Of a stretch of 64,000 bases of DNA, positions 10,920 through 18,156 are shown piece after piece. Below the pieces are notes generated by a model. It was not told where the DNA came from, searched no databases, and saw nothing but the letters and a program-made list of their open reading frames with translations. The stretch is from Undibacterium paludis (GTDB taxonomy: Bacteria; Pseudomonadota; Gammaproteobacteria; Burkholderiales; Burkholderiaceae_D). The stretch lies in NCBI RefSeq assembly GCF_022568815.1, contig NZ_JAKZHX010000006.1, positions 248,001 through 312,000 on the forward strand. Reading direction: 5' to 3'. A program made the position numbers and the translations under genes. The first letter of the stretch is position 1. Each line of letters opens with the position of its first letter.

Positions 10920-11048
10920 ATGGAAACTTTTAGCTTGAAAAAAAGTCATAAGCTAGTAGGATAATCTGATCGCAGCTTGAATCCAATCGAAAATGTAGTG
11001 CGTACAAGTTGGTGTGGATGGTGCGGCTGAAAAATTTTAAAAAATTTT

Positions 11049-11073
11049 TGTAAGTTTGCTTTGTCTGCGTCGA
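11049..11073 (+). promoter_or_regulatory. Possible ECF-sigma promoter of the bufferin operon
   Basis: TGTAAG and CGTCGA separated by 13 bases resemble the -35/-10 of ECF sigma factors, which control bufferin operons in other proteobacteria. The spacing is a little short and no sigma/anti-sigma gene is present nearby, so this is tentative. An AT-rich near-palindrome lies just upstream (11031-11049). Confidence 0.3.
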
Positions 11074-11143
11074 CTATAGGCTGTAGTTTCAAATTTTCCT
11101 ATCCAGGATATTTACCAAGTAGGTCACTTCACAGGAGATGAAC

Positions 11144-11398
11144 ATGAGTAACAAAGCAATGGTAGCAGTAGCACTGGCAGGTTTGTTGGGTTCTGGTTTG
11201 GCTATGGCAGCAGAGCCAGCTAAAACTGAAAAGTGCTTTGGTATCGCCAAAGCAGGTCAGAATGACTGCGCTACAAAATCTGGTTCCCACTCTTGCGCAG
11301 GTCAAGCTAAAAAAGACAATGACGCATCTGAATGGAAAAAAGTACCAGCCGGTTCTTGCGAAAAAATGGGTGGCAAACTGGAAGCACCCAAGTCCTGA
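11144..11398 (+). CDS. bufA: Bufferin precursor peptide (DUF2282 family)
   Basis: An 84-residue exported Cys-rich peptide of the DUF2282 / bufferin-1 family. A signal peptide ends at LAMA (residue ~22). The mature part has four Cys (31, 42, 51, 72) in the family pattern [19 protein letters not shown] and [10 protein letters not shown]. In studied bufferins the inner Cys residues are converted by the MNIO enzyme to thiooxazole groups and the product binds copper in the periplasm. The ATG at 11138 abuts AGGAG with no spacer, so the ATG six bases further (11144) is the better start. The MNIO enzyme and its partner follow directly, which fixes the assignment; the actual modification and metal here are inferred. 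Confidence 0.93.
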
Positions 11399-11425
11399 TA
11401 CTTGGTTGAGCAATGACGAGCTTGA

Positions 11426-12313
11426 ATGAGTTTGACTGATAAGGCTCGCTTGTACCCGCAACCGGCGTCTGCCCTGCAAGGGGTAGGCGTCGGCTTGCGT
11501 ACGCCACATTATCGTGATTTTCTGAATGCACCTGTCGCTATCGACTGGCTGGAGGTGCATTCAGAAAACTATTTTGGCGATGGCGGTTATGACCTGCATG
11601 TTTTGCAGACGTTGCGTCAAGACTATCCCGTCAGTTTGCATGGCGTAGGCTTGAGCCTGGGTTCCGCCCATGGCTATTCAGATTTGCACATCGACAAACT
11701 ACAGCGTCTGGTTGAGCGCGTAGAGCCAGCGTTGATATCCGAACACTTATGCTGGGGGGCTGTTGCAGGCCGGCACCTGAATGATCTCTTGCCCTTGCCC
11801 CTGATGCAAACCGCGCTTGATATGGTGAGTCAGCGGATTGAGTGGTTGCAGGACAGACTGAAGCAGCGCGTGCTGATAGAAAACGTCTCGACCTACCTGC
11901 GCTTTGCCAGTGACGACATGTCGGAAGCCGAATTCCTGGCGGCCCTGGTCAGGCGTAGTGGTTGCGGTATCTTGCTTGATGTTAATAATCTGTATGTCAA
12001 TCAAAACAACCATGGAGAAAGTGCATCCGCTGCCTTGAAGGTAATGGCTGCTTTGCCAGGCGGATCGATTGGTGAAATTCATCTGGCAGGGCATTTACAG
12101 ACAGATATTTGTCTGGTTGATGACCACGGCAGCCAGGTCGCCGGGCCGGTTTGGGACTTGTTCACTCAGGCCTGTCATTTGCTTGGAACAGGTATTCCTG
12201 TCTTGATAGAGTGGGATACTGCCATCCCCGCACTGCCAGTCTTGCTGGCCGAGGCCGACAAAGCCAGGGAAATTCTTGCCGCCATTAAACCTGCCAGGGC
12301 AACTGCAGCATGA
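11426..12313 (+). CDS. bufB: Bufferin-modifying MNIO enzyme (DUF692 family)
   Basis: A 295-residue TIM-barrel multinuclear non-heme iron oxidase (DUF692/MNIO). These enzymes use iron clusters to oxidise Cys residues of a substrate peptide. Metal- and substrate-site segments characteristic of the family are visible: [66 protein letters not shown] and the final IEWD. It starts 27 bp after the precursor gene and overlaps the next gene by four bases (ATGA), so the three are one transcription unit. Substrate is inferred to be the adjacent bufferin peptide. Confidence 0.94.
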
Positions 12314-13122
12314 CGTCCGCGACCACACTGACAGCATTACAGGAGCAGTTTGCACATGCCTTGATTCATCCTGCACATGCGGATGCAGCTATGCCCATGT
12401 TCAATGCACATCCCTTTGGCGAAGACAGACTGGCTCTGTACCGTGGCAATTTGACTGCTATCTGGAATAATGCGCTGGCTAATGCCTATCCTGTATTACA
12501 TCAACTGGTGGGTGACGCGTATTTTGAACAGGTGGCACGGGCCTATGGTCGTACCCATCCATCCATATCTGGTGACCTCAATGATTTCGGGGCGGATTTG
12601 CCGGCATTCCTGAAAAACATACCTGATGCGGCGGATTATCCTTATTTCCCTGACATGGCTGCGCTGGAGTGGCAGGTGCATCGTGCCTATTATGCTACAG
12701 ATGACAATAGCCTGAGCTTGGCGGAGCTGGTGCAGCAAGCTACTGCCGGAGGGTGCGATGTCCAGACGGCGCAACTGGAATTGCATTCCGCCGTCAGCCT
12801 GTATCGTTCTGACTGGGCCTGTGTCGATATCTGGCTGGCGCATCAGCCGGATGCGTCAATGGACATTCCGGCCAATATTCAACGACCGTGTTATGGCCTG
12901 ATTTGCAGACCATCCTGGGCGGTTCAACTTGTTTCTTTGGACCAGCCTGCCTGGCTCGCCCTGAATGCCTTGCAGCAAGGCGCGACACTGGCCGATGCGC
13001 TGGAAGTTGCCGTGGATGCCGCAGTCAACAGTGGTATTGATTTTGATATCAATCGTCACTTGCAATCCTGGTTTTCCGCCGGTTTGTTCAGGCAGGTGAA
13101 ATTTTCTGAGCCTGATGTGTAA
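12310..13122 (+). CDS. bufC: Bufferin partner protein (DUF2063 family)
   Basis: A 270-residue protein whose N-terminal ~100 residues match the DUF2063 putative DNA-binding/HvfC-type domain ([52 protein letters not shown]). In related systems this protein forms a complex with the MNIO enzyme and is thought to present the precursor peptide; despite the old domain name, DNA binding is not expected. The C-terminal part carries a winged, beta-rich region. The ATGA overlap with the MNIO gene implies translational coupling and equal amounts of the two subunits. Confidence 0.92.
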
Positions 13123-13174
13123 GTAAATAGTCTTTGCATTGACTAAGTTGCAGGAGATTAATTGGAGAACATTC

Positions 13175-13651
13175 ATGTACAACACCCTGCAATACTTTCA
13201 TAAATTAAGCACCCGTTTTGACGAGCAACTCAGCGTCCTGGGCGGTTCTGCCCTGAGTCTGGCGTTACGGTTATACGTAGGCTGGCAGTTTTTTAAAGCT
13301 GGCATGGTCAAGGTGTCGGACTGGCAGTCAACCTTGTCATTGTTCAGGGAGGAATACATCGTGCCTGTCGTTCCGCCTGAACTGGCTGCCTGGATGGGGG
13401 CGGGTGGTGAACTGGTTTTACCGGTCTTGCTGGTACTTGGCATTTTTTCCCGTCCAGCAGCCCTGGCCCTGTTTGCCGTGAATTTAATGGCAGTAATTTC
13501 ATATCCACAATTATTTGAACTTGAATGCCCGGCCGCCGTCAATTCCCATTTTTACTGGGGTATTTTGTTGCTGGTGCTGGTCAGTTTTGGCCCAGGAAAA
13601 TTGTCAGTGGATGCCTGGTTGGGCAAACGCCGGACTGCGCTTGCTGCATGA
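13175..13651 (+). CDS. DoxX-family membrane protein of the bufferin operon
   Basis: A ~158-residue membrane protein of the DoxX family with four predicted transmembrane helices; the family signature is seen in ALRLYVGWQFFKAGMVKVSDW, and GGELVLPVLLVLGIFSRPAALALF spans the second and third helices. The start at 13175 is chosen because GGAG lies 8 bases upstream; the frame is open from 13139. DoxX proteins are routine fourth members of bufferin operons (then called BufD) but their role is not settled; quinone-linked electron supply or membrane redox homeostasis has been suggested. It is the last gene of the operon. Confidence 0.88.
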   Translation: MYNTLQYFHKLSTRFDEQLSVLGGSALSLALRLYVGWQFFKAGMVKVSDWQSTLSLFREEYIVPVVPPELAAWMGAGGELVLPVLLVLGIFSRPAALALFAVNLMAVISYPQLFELECPAAVNSHFYWGILLLVLVSFGPGKLSVDAWLGKRRTALAA

Positions 13652-13657
13652 AGCACA

Positions 13658-13674
13658 GCATATGATCCATATGC
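13658..13674 (+). terminator. Hairpin after the bufferin operon
   Basis: GCATATG-ATC-CATATGC perfect inverted repeat seven bases after the DoxX stop, followed by CTGTTTT. A weak terminator, or an operator-like dyad. Confidence 0.4.
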
Positions 13675-13782: not shown

Positions 13783-14991
13783 ATGCAAAACAAATTCAGT
13801 TTCCGTGACGTTCACGGACAAATTCAATGGCGTACGCCTTTATTGACGGTAATTGCTGCAGCTGTTTGCAGCCTGGGTTACCTGGCTTATTCTGGCAAAA
13901 GTGTTGCGCAAGCCAGAACGCCGGACGCCAAAACAGAAAAAGAGCTGGTCTTTGAACTGTCGCCTGCTGATATCGCCAGCGCTGAATCAAGAGAGCTTTC
14001 CTCAAAATTGCCATTGTCCGGATCACTGGTGCCGGAAAGCCAGGTCACGATACGAGCCAAAGTCGTTGCTGAAGTAGCAGAAGCACCAATGCAGGAAGGT
14101 GTTGCTGTACGCAAGGGGCAGGTAATCGCCCGTTTTACTGCGGCAGACCTGCATGCGCGATTACTGACTCAGGAAGCTGCTGTTGATGAAGCGCAGGCGA
14201 AACTTGCCCTGGCCCAGAAAAACAGGCAGTCCAATGAGGTCCTGCTCAAGCAAAACTACATTTCACAGAATGCTTTTGATACCACACATAATGGTCTGGA
14301 ACTGGCTCAGGCCAATCTGAAGTCGGCCATGTCGCAAAAGCAGGTTGCCCAACTTGCACTGGCCGATACACAGGTGCGTGCCCCGCTTGATGGGATCATC
14401 AGCAAGCGGCATGTGCAGCCGGGCGAAAAAGTATCACCGGACTCACCCTTGTACAGCATTGTCAGTCTGGGGCGCATGACGCTGGAGGCACAAGTGCCTG
14501 CCAGTGAAATACCGCGCGTCAAAACGGGACAGAAAGTATTGTTCCAGGTAGATGGTTTTGGTGGTCGTGAATTCGAAGGCAAGGTTGCCAGGATTAATCC
14601 AGCAACCGAGGCAGGTTCTCGTTCCATGATGGTGTACATCGCTGTCGATAATGCCCATGCCAGCCTCAAGGGAGGCATGTTCGCCAAAGGCAGCCTGATA
14701 CTGGAGAAAACCGCCTCGACGGCCAGCGTACCCCTGACAGCCGTCAGGCAAGTAAATGGCGTTGATGTGGTGTACCAGGTACTCAATGATCAGGTCAGGA
14801 TACAGCCGGTCAAGCTGGGTTTGCGCAGTGATGATGAAGGGCATGTACAGATTTTACATGGTTTGGAGCCGGGGGCAGTAGTGATTGCCTCGCGTCTTGA
14901 TAGCGTCAAGGCTGGAAGCCGGGTGAAAATGCCCAGAGCGAGCACCAATGCCAACCAGAACCCGGCTTCTGGCACAGCTGCGAAGGTCTGA
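13783..14991 (+). CDS. RND efflux periplasmic adaptor (membrane-fusion protein)
   Basis: A 402-residue HlyD/AcrA-family adaptor that bridges an inner-membrane RND pump to an outer-membrane channel. A single N-terminal hydrophobic segment (TPLLTVIAAAVCSLGYLAY) anchors or exports it. The barrel-sandwich lipoyl halves are visible as GSLVPESQVTIRAKV...GVAVRKGQVIARF and VRAPLDGIISKRHVQPGEKV, with an alpha-hairpin between them (Gln/Ala-rich, residues ~120-195), then beta-barrel and membrane-proximal domains. It is followed after 3 bp by the pump gene. No outer-membrane factor is encoded here, so a TolC-type partner elsewhere is presumed. Confidence 0.92.
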   Translation: MQNKFSFRDVHGQIQWRTPLLTVIAAAVCSLGYLAYSGKSVAQARTPDAKTEKELVFELSPADIASAESRELSSKLPLSGSLVPESQVTIRAKVVAEVAEAPMQEGVAVRKGQVIARFTAADLHARLLTQEAAVDEAQAKLALAQKNRQSNEVLLKQNYISQNAFDTTHNGLELAQANLKSAMSQKQVAQLALADTQVRAPLDGIISKRHVQPGEKVSPDSPLYSIVSLGRMTLEAQVPASEIPRVKTGQKVLFQVDGFGGREFEGKVARINPATEAGSRSMMVYIAVDNAHASLKGGMFAKGSLILEKTASTASVPLTAVRQVNGVDVVYQVLNDQVRIQPVKLGLRSDDEGHVQILHGLEPGAVVIASRLDSVKAGSRVKMPRASTNANQNPASGTAAKV

Positions 14992-14994
14992 ACC

Positions 14995-17900
14995 ATGTGG
15001 ATGACCAAAGTCAGTATACAAAACCCCGTGTTCGCCACCATGGTCATGGTGGGCTTGATGGTGCTGGGCATTTTTTCGTACAAAGGTCTCGGTCTGGAAA
15101 ACATGCCCAATGTCGAATCGCCAGGGGTCTGGATGGAAGTACGTTACCCGGGGGCTTCACCAGAAATCGTTGAAAACGATATCACCAAGCCGGTTGAAAA
15201 TGTCGTCAATACCATCAGCGGTGTCAAGCGCATCATGGCCAGTTCGTATGAGGGCAGGGCTGGTATCTGGATAGAATTCCAGTTGTCGGTCAATGGTGAC
15301 AAGGTATTGCAGGAAGTCCGTGACAAGGTAGCACAGATACGTCCCGGATTTCCCAGGGATGTCAAAGATCCCTTCATCGTCAAGGGCGGTAATGACGACA
15401 ATAGCCGTCCCGTGGTGCAGATGGCAGTCAGTTCGGGTGAGCGCAGTCTGCGCGAGTTGTCGAACCTGACGGACCAGATCATCGTCAAGAAATTGCAGAG
15501 CGTACCTGGTGTTGGCCGGGTTGATACGCGTGGAGCGGTGATACGCCAGGTAGAGGTAAGGCTCCTGCCTGACCGCATGGCAGCCAATCGTGTCGGCGTC
15601 AATGAAGTGCTGACTGCGATACAGAACACCAATCAAAACATGCCTGCCGGCTTGATTACCCGTGGTGCGCAAGATCAGCTGGTCAGGCTGGAAGCCAAGA
15701 TAGTCGAGGCAAAAGGCTTTAATAAAATTATCGTGGCCCGTCGTGCTGGCGCACCGGTTTACCTGGAGCAGGTAGCCGAAGTGATTGATGGCGAGCGTGA
15801 AGAATATTCCATCTCTCGTGTGAACGGGCAAAGATCGATCGCGCTGGCGATATCACGAATACAGGATGCCAATATCGTCGAGGTTGGTGATGGCGTCATG
15901 GCTGCTATCGACGAACTGAAGACTCGTTTGCCAAAGGACGTGAAGATGACAGTCAGCGAAAACAATGCTGATTCTGTCAGGCATTCACTTGATGGTGTGA
16001 AAGAAACCATACTTGAAGGCGCTGGCCTGACGGTGCTGATTGTGTTTTTATTCCTGCACTCCTGGCGAAGTACCATCATCACCGGCCTGACCTTGCCGAT
16101 ATCGGTGATCGCCACATTCATCGCCTTGAAGGCATTCGGTTTTACACTGAATTTTCTGACCATGATGGCGCTCTCGCTTTGCATAGGTTTGCTGATCGAC
16201 GACGCAATTGTGGTGCGTGAAAATATTGTCCGCCATCTGGGCATGGGCAAGGGACATAAGCAGGCGGCTGAAGATGGCACGAATGAAATTGGTCTGGCCG
16301 TCATGGCCACCACATTTGCTATTGTTGCAGTGTTTGTACCGGTTGCCTTTATGAAGGGGATGATAGGCAAATTCTTTTTCCAGTTCGGTATTACCGTCAC
16401 GGTAGCGGTGCTGGTATCCCTGTTTGTCAGTTTCACGCTGGACCCCATGTTGTCTTCTGTCTGGCGTGACCCGGCAGAAAACCGTTTCAGGCATTTGCCC
16501 TGGCTGGCCAGGCTGATGGATGCTGTGGAACATGGTATAGAAAAACTGCACATTATTTATGGCAAGCTTTTGCAACTGGTTTTGCGCAAACGCAAAACGA
16601 CACTGCTGCTAGCATTGAGTTTATTCGCCTCCAGTTTTTTCCTGGTGCCCATGATAGGGACAGAATTCATACCGGAAGCGGATGAAGGTCAGATCACAAT
16701 CAATCTGAAGACACCTGTCGGTTCGAGTCTGACCTACACGGATGAAAAAACACGACAGGTAGAAGCAATTCTGAAAGAAATGCCGGCGATTCAAACCATC
16801 AACACGTCAGTTGGCGTAGAGAATGAGCGTAATACGGCGCAAATCAACATGAAGCTGACAGAAGTCCGCCTGACACATCGCAAGTCACAAAAGCAGATAG
16901 AGATGCAGATTCGTGAGCGCCTCAAAAGCATACCGGGCATAGAGATGGCCGTTGGTTTCGACAAGCCGATTTATGTTGCCATCCTTGGGCCTGATGCGGA
17001 CAAGTTGCAGGATGTGATCAATGACGTGATGAAAAAAATTGCGGCGATCAAAGGCATCACTGACCTGGAAAGCAGCCTGACGGGCGCCAATCCTACCGTT
17101 CTGGTCAAGGTTAACAATGAACTGGCCAATGACCTTGGTTTGTCTGTGCAGCAAATCGGCTCGGCCTTACGCCCTTTTGTTGCTGGCGACACCATAGGTC
17201 AATGGCTGGCGTCTGACGGACAGAATTATGAAATCAATGTGCAGTTACCCAAATCGGGGCGGCAAAAAATTTCTGATCTTGCCGACTTGTCATTGGCCAG
17301 TTCCAGGCAGGATGCGCAAGGCAATCCTGTCATGGTGCCTTTGCGTCAGGTAGTACAATTTATTCCCAGTACCAGTCCGCGTGTCATCAAAAGGCAGGAC
17401 TTGCAGCGCCGTGCTGCTATTTATGCGAATGTGGAAGGGCGACCCACCGGTGACGTTGGCGCAGAGGTGCAAAAACTGGTCAAGACCATACAGCTGCCGC
17501 CTGGTTATCGCTTCGACATCGGCGGGCAGACCAGGGAAATGCAGGAGTCATTCAGTGCAGCAGTTGCTGCCCTCGGTATTGCTGTGATCTTTATTTATCT
17601 GATACTGGCGTCACAATTCGGTAGTTTCCTGCAACCGCTGGCTATCATGACGGCCTTACCGTTTTCGCTGATAGGCGTCTTGCTGGCTTTGCTGATTACC
17701 GGCAGCACGCTGAACATTTTTTCCATTATCGGCTTTATTATGCTGATGGGGCTGGTGACCAAGAATGCGATTTTGCTTGTCGATTTTATCAATCAGGCGC
17801 AAAAGCAGGGTATGAGCCAGTTTGATGCCGTACTGGCTGCCGGTCAGGTACGGCTGCGCCCCATCCTGATGACTACTCTGGCCATGGTTTTTGGCATGCT

Positions 17901-18156
17901 GCCCATGGCAATCGGTCTCAGTGATGGTGCTGAAACCCAGGCGCCCATGGGCAGGGCCGTCATAGGCGGGATTATCACCTCCACACTGCTGACCCTGCTC
18001 GTCGTGCCCATTGCCTATACCTATCTCGATAACCTGGGTAAAAAAGCCAAAGCCTATTTTACCCGTCATGAAACCGGGACACAGGTACATGCAGTGGGAT
18101 ACGATACTGGAGTCGTGATCCCCACAACTGTAATCGGCAACATCGGTAAAGATTGA
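14995..18156 (+). CDS. RND efflux transporter, HAE1-like inner-membrane pump
   Basis: A 1053-residue AcrB-type proton-driven transporter with twelve transmembrane helices and two large periplasmic loops. The proton-relay Asp pair is in TM4 (LCIGLLIDDAIVVREN), the paired Lys in TM10 (MGLVTKNAILLVDFINQA), and TM1 begins at residue ~10. The pore/porter sequence differs from AcrB's Phe-rich pocket, so substrates cannot be guessed; this subgroup is commonly annotated as multidrug or organic-solvent efflux. Only 3 bp separate it from the adaptor stop and its own ribosome-binding site is weak, so translational coupling is likely. The C-terminal tail of ~30 residues is hydrophilic. Confidence 0.93.
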   Translation: MWMTKVSIQNPVFATMVMVGLMVLGIFSYKGLGLENMPNVESPGVWMEVRYPGASPEIVENDITKPVENVVNTISGVKRIMASSYEGRAGIWIEFQLSVNGDKVLQEVRDKVAQIRPGFPRDVKDPFIVKGGNDDNSRPVVQMAVSSGERSLRELSNLTDQIIVKKLQSVPGVGRVDTRGAVIRQVEVRLLPDRMAANRVGVNEVLTAIQNTNQNMPAGLITRGAQDQLVRLEAKIVEAKGFNKIIVARRAGAPVYLEQVAEVIDGEREEYSISRVNGQRSIALAISRIQDANIVEVGDGVMAAIDELKTRLPKDVKMTVSENNADSVRHSLDGVKETILEGAGLTVLIVFLFLHSWRSTIITGLTLPISVIATFIALKAFGFTLNFLTMMALSLCIGLLIDDAIVVRENIVRHLGMGKGHKQAAEDGTNEIGLAVMATTFAIVAVFVPVAFMKGMIGKFFFQFGITVTVAVLVSLFVSFTLDPMLSSVWRDPAENRFRHLPWLARLMDAVEHGIEKLHIIYGKLLQLVLRKRKTTLLLALSLFASSFFLVPMIGTEFIPEADEGQITINLKTPVGSSLTYTDEKTRQVEAILKEMPAIQTINTSVGVENERNTAQINMKLTEVRLTHRKSQKQIEMQIRERLKSIPGIEMAVGFDKPIYVAILGPDADKLQDVINDVMKKIAAIKGITDLESSLTGANPTVLVKVNNELANDLGLSVQQIGSALRPFVAGDTIGQWLASDGQNYEINVQLPKSGRQKISDLADLSLASSRQDAQGNPVMVPLRQVVQFIPSTSPRVIKRQDLQRRAAIYANVEGRPTGDVGAEVQKLVKTIQLPPGYRFDIGGQTREMQESFSAAVAALGIAVIFIYLILASQFGSFLQPLAIMTALPFSLIGVLLALLITGSTLNIFSIIGFIMLMGLVTKNAILLVDFINQAQKQGMSQFDAVLAAGQVRLRPILMTTLAMVFGMLPMAIGLSDGAETQAPMGRAVIGGIITSTLLTLLVVPIAYTYLDNLGKKAKAYFTRHETGTQVHAVGYDTGVVIPTTVIGNIGKD

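Follow-up and report, generated by a model that had tools for sequence, protein, structure and literature searches.

How is a bufferin operon controlled when no regulator gene stands beside it? The question is raised by the operon bufA1-bufB-bufC-doxX of Undibacterium paludis, which lies in a stretch of 64,000 nucleotides (positions 248001-312000 of contig C56, hereafter the window) in a genome of 6.5 Mb and 76 contigs. Judged by its sequence it is a Buf1-type bufferin operon, a kind that is already known. The first-pass annotation had remarked that no sigma/anti-sigma pair is attached to it, so that its regulation might differ from that of some relatives. It is true that no such pair adjoins the operon, but a likely one is present on another contig and a promoter-like element of the extracytoplasmic function (ECF) type precedes bufA1. 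We therefore consider it probable, at roughly three chances in four, that the operon belongs to a copper/oxidant regulon of the sigma-E/MseR type whose regulatory pair is unlinked to it. For bufferin operons without an adjacent regulator gene, the motif, the candidate pair and a case of natural loss described here offer a testable answer on control.

In the mechanism that we propose, BufA1 would be made with a Sec signal and BufB, helped by BufC, would oxidise its two central cysteines to copper-chelating thiooxazoles, after which the exported peptide would buffer periplasmic copper, as suggested by the function of family members. Transcription of bufA1 would most likely start from the element at 11049-11076, and that of doxX also from the one at 13118-13145, through a holoenzyme with an unlinked sigma factor of the type known from Neisseria (sigma-E) and Haemophilus (RpoE2). 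This factor, encoded on contig C3 (the C3 sigma), would be held by a small zinc-type anti-sigma encoded just downstream. The same sigma would also activate bufA2, msrP, msrA, thioredoxin-like genes and a DUF1223 gene, the joint response being copper trapping together with the repair of oxidised envelope proteins. Extended to the genus, it is quite likely that Undibacterium has a scattered regulon in which one unlinked pair commands Buf1, Buf2, MsrP, MsrA, thioredoxin-like and DUF1223 genes, with copper buffering as one arm of an envelope-oxidation response and not as part of a purely copper-directed one.

A conserved element ahead of bufA1 and its copies

The element TGTAAG-N16-CGACTA (Table 1) was located in an alignment of about 330 bp upstream of bufA, comprising the window and nine Undibacterium-type loci. 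All 12 specified bases are identical in the ten aligned regions, and much of the upstream sequence outside the element is divergent between the more distant loci. Read as GTAAGTTTG, 12 nt and CGACTATA, the element differs from the Neisseria sigma-E consensus (GTMAGBWTT, 12-13 nt, CGTCTAAH; PMC2893595, PMC3240639) once in the -35 and twice in the -10 part. The second promoter-like element of the window stands before doxX, and the form TGTAAG-N16/17-[CT]GAC is also present before doxX in loci L004, L005, L006, L027, L008 and L010; no such form was found there in L011 and L043, the fetched stretches of L009 and L013 being incomplete. Since doxX has a conserved promoter-like element of its own, the four genes may not all be read as a single, simple transcript.

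The 12-base form has a single exact copy in the genome, the one at bufA1, and the pattern with one mismatch allowed is unenriched genome-wide (25 copies, against 39 for the control). When the -10 part is trimmed from CGACTA to CGAC, which was done post hoc after inspecting the genes behind the one-mismatch matches, 11 genome copies of TGTAAG-N16-CGAC are obtained. By our own reading nine of these lie 30-112 bp ahead of a gene on the same strand. The genes behind them are bufA1, bufA2, msrP (NF003767, 483.8 against a cut-off of 207), msrA (TIGR00401, 172.9 against 108.1), two thioredoxin-like genes, a DUF1223 gene, a Spond_N gene and a gene for an exported protein that has one CxxCH motif and no Pfam family. 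The copy before this last gene (L096) is the weakest of the nine, the open frame continuing upstream across the element and beyond the end of the fetched stretch. A further two, at L095 and L100, overlap open reading frames (ORFs) of at least 120 codons on the opposite strand (196 and 128), and the two copies outside the nine, at L097 and L102, are antisense and inside genes.

As a control the pattern was read backwards, which gives 15 copies. Twelve of these are inside ORFs of at least 120 codons, at most two (L111 and L114) are promoter-like by our reading, and none precedes a gene like those of the element set. Our reading, 9/11 against 2/15, corresponds to a one-sided Fisher probability of 0.0008. 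A mechanical rule that asks for an ORF of at least 70 codons starting within 120 bp returns 9/11 for the element (L102 counting and L096 not) and 3/15 for the control; with at least 150 codons the figures are 7/11 and 1/15.

The same fixed pattern was applied to six other sigma-positive genomes, the genes being assigned by tblastn with the proteins of our genome. Genomes G006, G025 and G035 are sigma-positive directly; the three named species U. pigrum, U. hunanense and U. flavidum count as such through G018, G013 and G011, with which they have identical 700-bp stretches in common. Copies before genes of the set number four of seven in U. pigrum and again in G025 (bufA1, bufA2, msrP and DUF1223 in both), six of seven in U. 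hunanense (bufA1, bufA2, msrP, msrA, DUF1223 and a thioredoxin-like gene) and four of ten in G035 (bufA1, msrP, msrA and a thioredoxin-like gene at 31% identity), where an additional copy lies 244 bp ahead of doxX. The corresponding counts are 2/11 in U. flavidum and 2/7 in G006 (bufA1 and msrP each time). Over the sigma-positive genomes, our own included, bufA1 and msrP follow the element in 7/7, bufA2 and DUF1223 in 4/7 and msrA in 3/7.

A candidate sigma/anti-sigma pair on another contig

Twenty-one genes of the genome contain a sigma-70 region 2. Among them, the C3 sigma gene is the best match of the ECF genes adjacent to buf operons at ten other loci, with 48-55% identity, and the next best own sigma gene reaches about 32% or lower. 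In a tree of 23 proteins the C3 sigma and the ten buf-linked sigma factors form one clade with support of 100/100; the clade does not include the ECF genes of L023 and L037. This tree contains 11 of the 21 own genes, the other ten having been excluded because they showed little or no similarity to the C3 sigma or exceeded 420 residues, and several of its branches are long. The C3 sigma passes TIGR02943 (250.3 against 162.2), and the gene directly after it encodes an anti-sigma that passes NF052368 (68.4 against 50). A spacing of C-x25-H-x3-C-x2-C is present in 10/10 anti-sigma proteins read, namely our own and nine from linked loci (that of the linked locus L028 is outside the count), and it equals the Cys4-His30-Cys34-Cys37 of Neisseria MseR. 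An ORF with such spacing is found in 26 of the 30 Undibacterium sigma loci fetched.

Where the sigma gene and the buf genes are neighbours, the element can be looked for directly. GT[AC]AG-N16/17-CGAC occurs within 250 bp before the operon in all ten sigma-linked buf loci, and in three of the 19 other buf loci outside Undibacterium (L011, L017, L046); single-base shuffles of the linked upstream regions gave a mean of 0.05 in ten and a maximum of two over 2000 rounds. GTAAG had been widened to GT[AC]AG after GTCAG was seen in five loci, the published Neisseria consensus already being GTMAG, and in the case of L019, L020 and L036 we took the sequence ahead of a thioredoxin-like gene heading the operon, a choice made after the element was seen there. 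From the 43 loci, L033, L038, L039, L040 and L043 were excluded, their bufA start being cut off, unfound or elsewhere.

Moreover, element and sigma gene can be followed together across 43 Undibacterium genomes, of which 38 have a homologue of the C3 sigma (E 1e-20) and 40 have DUF2282. All 45 DUF2282 stretches were read and TGTAAG-N15..17-CGAC is upstream in 36; counted by genome, 35 of 40 have it ahead of one or more bufA genes. The bufA genomes without it are G005, G020, G008, G043 and G030, the last with only a 17-spaced copy more than 400 bp away. Thirty-four of the genomes with bufA are near-complete (completeness of 90% or more, contamination of 5% or less), and only G005 and G020 among these are sigma-negative. 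The element is at bufA in 30/32 sigma-positive and 0/2 sigma-negative near-complete genomes (Fisher one-sided 0.011), and in G005 and G020 0/4 and 0/5 of the pattern copies precede genes of the set. In G019 (L181) an insertion, with inverted-repeat ends as judged by eye, separates the element at about 1062 from bufA at 1417, on the reverse strand.

Several observations weigh against the regulon proposed here. In our genome TGTAAG-N16-CGAC is not enriched over the control (11 against 15), so that the weight of the pattern lies only in its position and conservation, and the count of genes behind it is partly circular because the pattern was trimmed post hoc and the promoter-like places were read unblinded. 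In U. flavidum and G006 the genes found from the set were limited to bufA1 and msrP. Two near-complete, sigma-positive genomes have no strict element at bufA, namely G008 (AGAC for CGAC, one base off) and G043 (none), and extra bufA copies without the element exist in the element-positive G010, G012, G016 and G044. The 402 bp ahead of bufA in G005 and G020 are 91.5% identical, and since these genomes are close relatives the loss of element and sigma probably counts once. Conversely, G023 and G026, which are 73% and 56% complete, have the element and no sigma hit, and in G027 and G038 (9% contaminated) the sigma factor is present but DUF2282 gave no hit. No such element was found upstream of the C3 sigma gene, so autoregulation is not seen. 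Finally, the region ahead of bufA also contains a sigma-70 match, with 9 of 12 bases, at 10935-10962.

These points give some room to two other explanations. With 21 region-2 hits in the genome, a cognate pair deduced by comparison and a C3 sigma gene that has no element upstream, another ECF sigma might be the one that reads TGTAAG-N16-CGAC, the C3 pair then controlling something else. We regard this as unlikely, given that the C3 gene alone, among the 11 own sigma genes placed in the tree, joins the buf-linked clade (100/100) and the remaining ones are far more distant from the buf-linked ones, that the element is absent where the C3 homologue is absent in near-complete genomes, and that the consensus is similar to the one of Neisseria sigma-E.

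A copper sensor of the CueR/CusR type, or the main sigma, could instead drive the operon, the conservation of TGTAAG/CGAC being incidental. The gig operons elsewhere are copper-induced and, in Cupriavidus, control by RpoQ is reported to be unproven (PMC10304878); the stretch with the sigma-70 match is, besides, similar in L004, L005 and L027. Sigma-70 matches in the region are, however, at chance level (two found against 2.8 expected), the 12 bases of the element are kept in 10/10 loci and the same element precedes msrP, bufA2 and other genes, which, for a search that covered sigma-type promoters, makes this possibility very improbable in our view. Control by an unlinked pair of the sigma-E/MseR type remains our preferred reading.

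Two further candidates for control were set aside. The sigma gene C1:142637 (L056) has a one-mismatch element about 200 bp upstream, which falls inside a divergent cytochrome-like ORF, and it was dropped. Control of the SigF/NrsF type was rejected as our genome has no match to NrsF (PF06532), which the Caulobacter control genome does match.

Around the C3 pair some other features were observed. Within the sigma gene, in its 3' part and ahead of the anti-sigma, there is a copy of the element with CGTCTA (G000:C3:30277-30304), possibly reflecting coding constraint, and a similar word occurs within the sigma genes of L026 and L034. The pair is followed by a small Cys-rich CWC protein (PF14375, L059:686-919).

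The operon, its peptide and the neighbouring genes

The four genes are on the + strand in the order bufA1-bufB-bufC-doxX, all intact and each matching its Pfam family, which confirms the gene set and order first proposed for this locus; the models for DUF2282, DUF692 and DUF2063 (PF10048, PF05114 and PF09836) all score above cut-off, as does PF07681 for doxX (Table 1). According to a recent account, these four gene types are the core of bufferin clusters (PMC12452194). Genes bufB and bufC overlap in an ATGA at 12310-12313, and doxX could start at ATG 13175 (158 residues) or TTG 13139 (170 residues). The closest named loci are those of Undibacterium pigrum, U. umbellatum and U. hunanense, with BufB 75-77% identical. 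The order bufA-bufB-bufC-doxX is kept in L004, L005, L006, L008, L010 and L027 (the stretches of L007, L009 and L013 are incomplete for this comparison), and the operon is therefore not a chance arrangement. Four loci from Burkholderia, Trinickia and Duganella (L014, L015, L016, L035) have bufABC with no DoxX match in the fetched stretch and no element.

Table 1. Coordinates of the operon genes and associated features (window positions unless a contig or locus is given)
Feature	Location	Strand	Remarks
bufA1 (Buf1-type DUF2282 precursor)	11144-11398	+	84 aa; PF10048, 87 bits (cut-off 22.4)
bufB (MNIO enzyme)	11426-12313	+	PF05114, 319.7 bits (cut-off 25)
bufC (DUF2063-type partner)	12310-13122	+	PF09836, 74.5 bits (cut-off 27.2)
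doxX (small membrane protein)	13175-13651	+	PF07681, 56.3 bits (cut-off 23.6)
ECF-type promoter-like element TGTAAG-N16-CGACTA	11049-11076	+	67 bp before bufA1
Second promoter-like element TGTAAG-N16-TGACTA	13118-13145	+	before doxX, overlaps bufC stop; one mismatch to the first
Weak terminator-like hairpin, between doxX and the RND genes	13658-13674	+	region: 7 such matches, 3.4 expected from shuffles
Candidate ECF sigma gene	G000:C3:30197-30766 (L059)		190 aa from likely start
Second bufferin cluster (BufA2 precursor, MNIO, DUF2063-type partner)	L002:674-2725		same promoter-like element upstream

BufB is above the cut-off of the bufferin maturase model NF050167 of NCBIfam (MNIO_BufB, 344.9 against 310), and the oxazolin (Hvf) models are all below theirs (HvfB 213.6/360, HvfC NF050145 46.5/142, HvfX NF050144 56.9/80), so that the cluster is to be classed as Buf1-type and not as oxazolin-type. 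The precursor is below the BufA2 cut-off (NF050166, 24.6 against 60). One DUF2282 gene and two MNIO genes are present in the genome. The second MNIO gene, at about 43 kb of contig C56 and outside the window, is behind a precursor with a BufA2 score of 98.9 against 60, and the strain thus holds one Buf1 and one Buf2 operon. Both kinds of bufferin have been described: in that account, 4072 genomes out of more than 40,000 that are fully assembled have DUF2282 genes, and Buf1 clusters, unlike Buf2 clusters, include sigma/NrsF genes (PMC12452194).

Mature BufA1 has four cysteines (CFG..., NDC, SCAG, SCEK) in a pattern shared by its genus homologues, so the four-Cys family pattern recognised in the first-pass annotation is borne out. 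An N-terminal hydrophobic stretch ending in AMA-A looks, by eye, like a Sec signal; the peptide had been called secreted, and it would instead be expected in the periplasm. In Buf1 bufferins, which have four cysteines, the central two are reported to be modified to copper-chelating thiooxazoles, and in Caulobacter bufferin 1 the outer pair forms a disulphide (PMC12452194); the mass change is about -4 Da per thiooxazole or modified cysteine (PMC12668002). If BufA1 is like Caulobacter bufferin 1, its central cysteines would become thiooxazoles and its outer pair a disulphide. One genome, G010, has a single 359-codon frame with two DUF2282 matches, a tandem Buf1-like protein (G010:C45:1097426-1097803).

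Forty BufB sequences, of which 38 come from the 43 related loci and two from our own genome, were aligned, and 19 columns with His, Asp, Glu or Asn are conserved in 39 or more of them. BufB aligns with structure 3bww; among solved structures no sequence relative was found for BufC or BufA, the latter giving one chance-level hit (E 0.91). It could be argued that the BufA-like peptide stays unmodified or binds another metal, the cluster being a relic, and published MerC-bufferin fusions do hint at other metals (PMC12452194). With four intact genes, DUF2282 in 40/43 Undibacterium genomes and the BufB His/Asp/Glu/Asn columns kept, such an explanation seems highly doubtful, and a working Buf1-type operon remains the better account.

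Past the weak hairpin that follows doxX there are genes for a resistance-nodulation-division (RND) adaptor and an AcrB-type permease (13783-18156). They were left out of the operon because their scores are below the CusA/CzcA and CzcB cut-offs. The pair is behind the operon in the fetched stretches of L004, L005, L027 and L043 and was not found in those of L006, L008 and L010; on both grounds, scores and distribution, the idea of a copper-efflux partner was dropped.

Related regulons in other bacteria

We found no report for Undibacterium, in the open-licence literature, of a Buf1/Buf2/Msr regulon under an unlinked pair. This reading nevertheless has clear precedents, and the regulatory proposal is well supported by the comparison.

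In Caulobacter vibrioides, SigF controls the bufferin-type operons CC3254-57 and CC2907-05 and partly the YedY/MsrP gene CC2748, with the promoter GTAACC-N16-CGAA (PMC3511200). The likeness lies in the operons, with their DUF2282, MNIO, DUF2063 and DoxX genes, and in a similar promoter layout. The anti-sigma there is the six-helix NrsF, whereas Undibacterium has a small anti-sigma of the zinc type and the element TGTAAG/CGAC.

The sigma-E regulon of Neisseria includes the operon NMB2140-2145 and msrAB (PMC2893595, PMC3240639). We take NMB2140-2145 to be an MNIO operon because its gonococcal counterpart holds NGO1945, a DUF2063 protein. Common to sigma-E/MseR and the Undibacterium pair are the zinc anti-sigma spacing, the promoter consensus and a DoxX-ended operon paired with Msr. 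In Neisseria the sigma and anti-sigma genes are inside the operon and autoregulated, whereas the Undibacterium pair is unlinked and no element stands before its sigma gene.

The sigma factor RpoE2 of Haemophilus influenzae, kept in check by the small cytoplasmic protein HrsE, has as targets msrAB and, at a separate place, a cluster with DoxX, MNIO-type and DUF2063 genes; its regulon is hypochlorite-induced with little autoregulation (PMC7907618). Here the ECF sigma, the small anti-sigma, the MNIO cluster located elsewhere and the Msr target are all as proposed for Undibacterium. The precursor is different, being an oxazolin with EGKCG in Haemophilus and a Buf1 peptide in Undibacterium, whose BufC and DoxX are below the HvfC and HvfX cut-offs.

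A four-gene operon of the same kind is gigPABT of Cupriavidus metallidurans, which is copper-induced and has rpoQ-rsqA adjacent to it (PMC10304878). Unlike in Undibacterium, this pair is divergent and linked, with a predicted membrane anti-sigma factor. The gig genes of Legionella respond to copper and gold (PMC5413113).

If our proposal is true, a single regulon would merge the targets of Caulobacter SigF (two bufferin-type operons and msrP) with those of Neisseria sigma-E and Haemophilus RpoE2 (an MNIO operon and msrAB). Copper-trapping peptides would then be linked with the repair of oxidised methionine, in line with an E. coli study that concerns MsrP during copper stress (PMC9302797).

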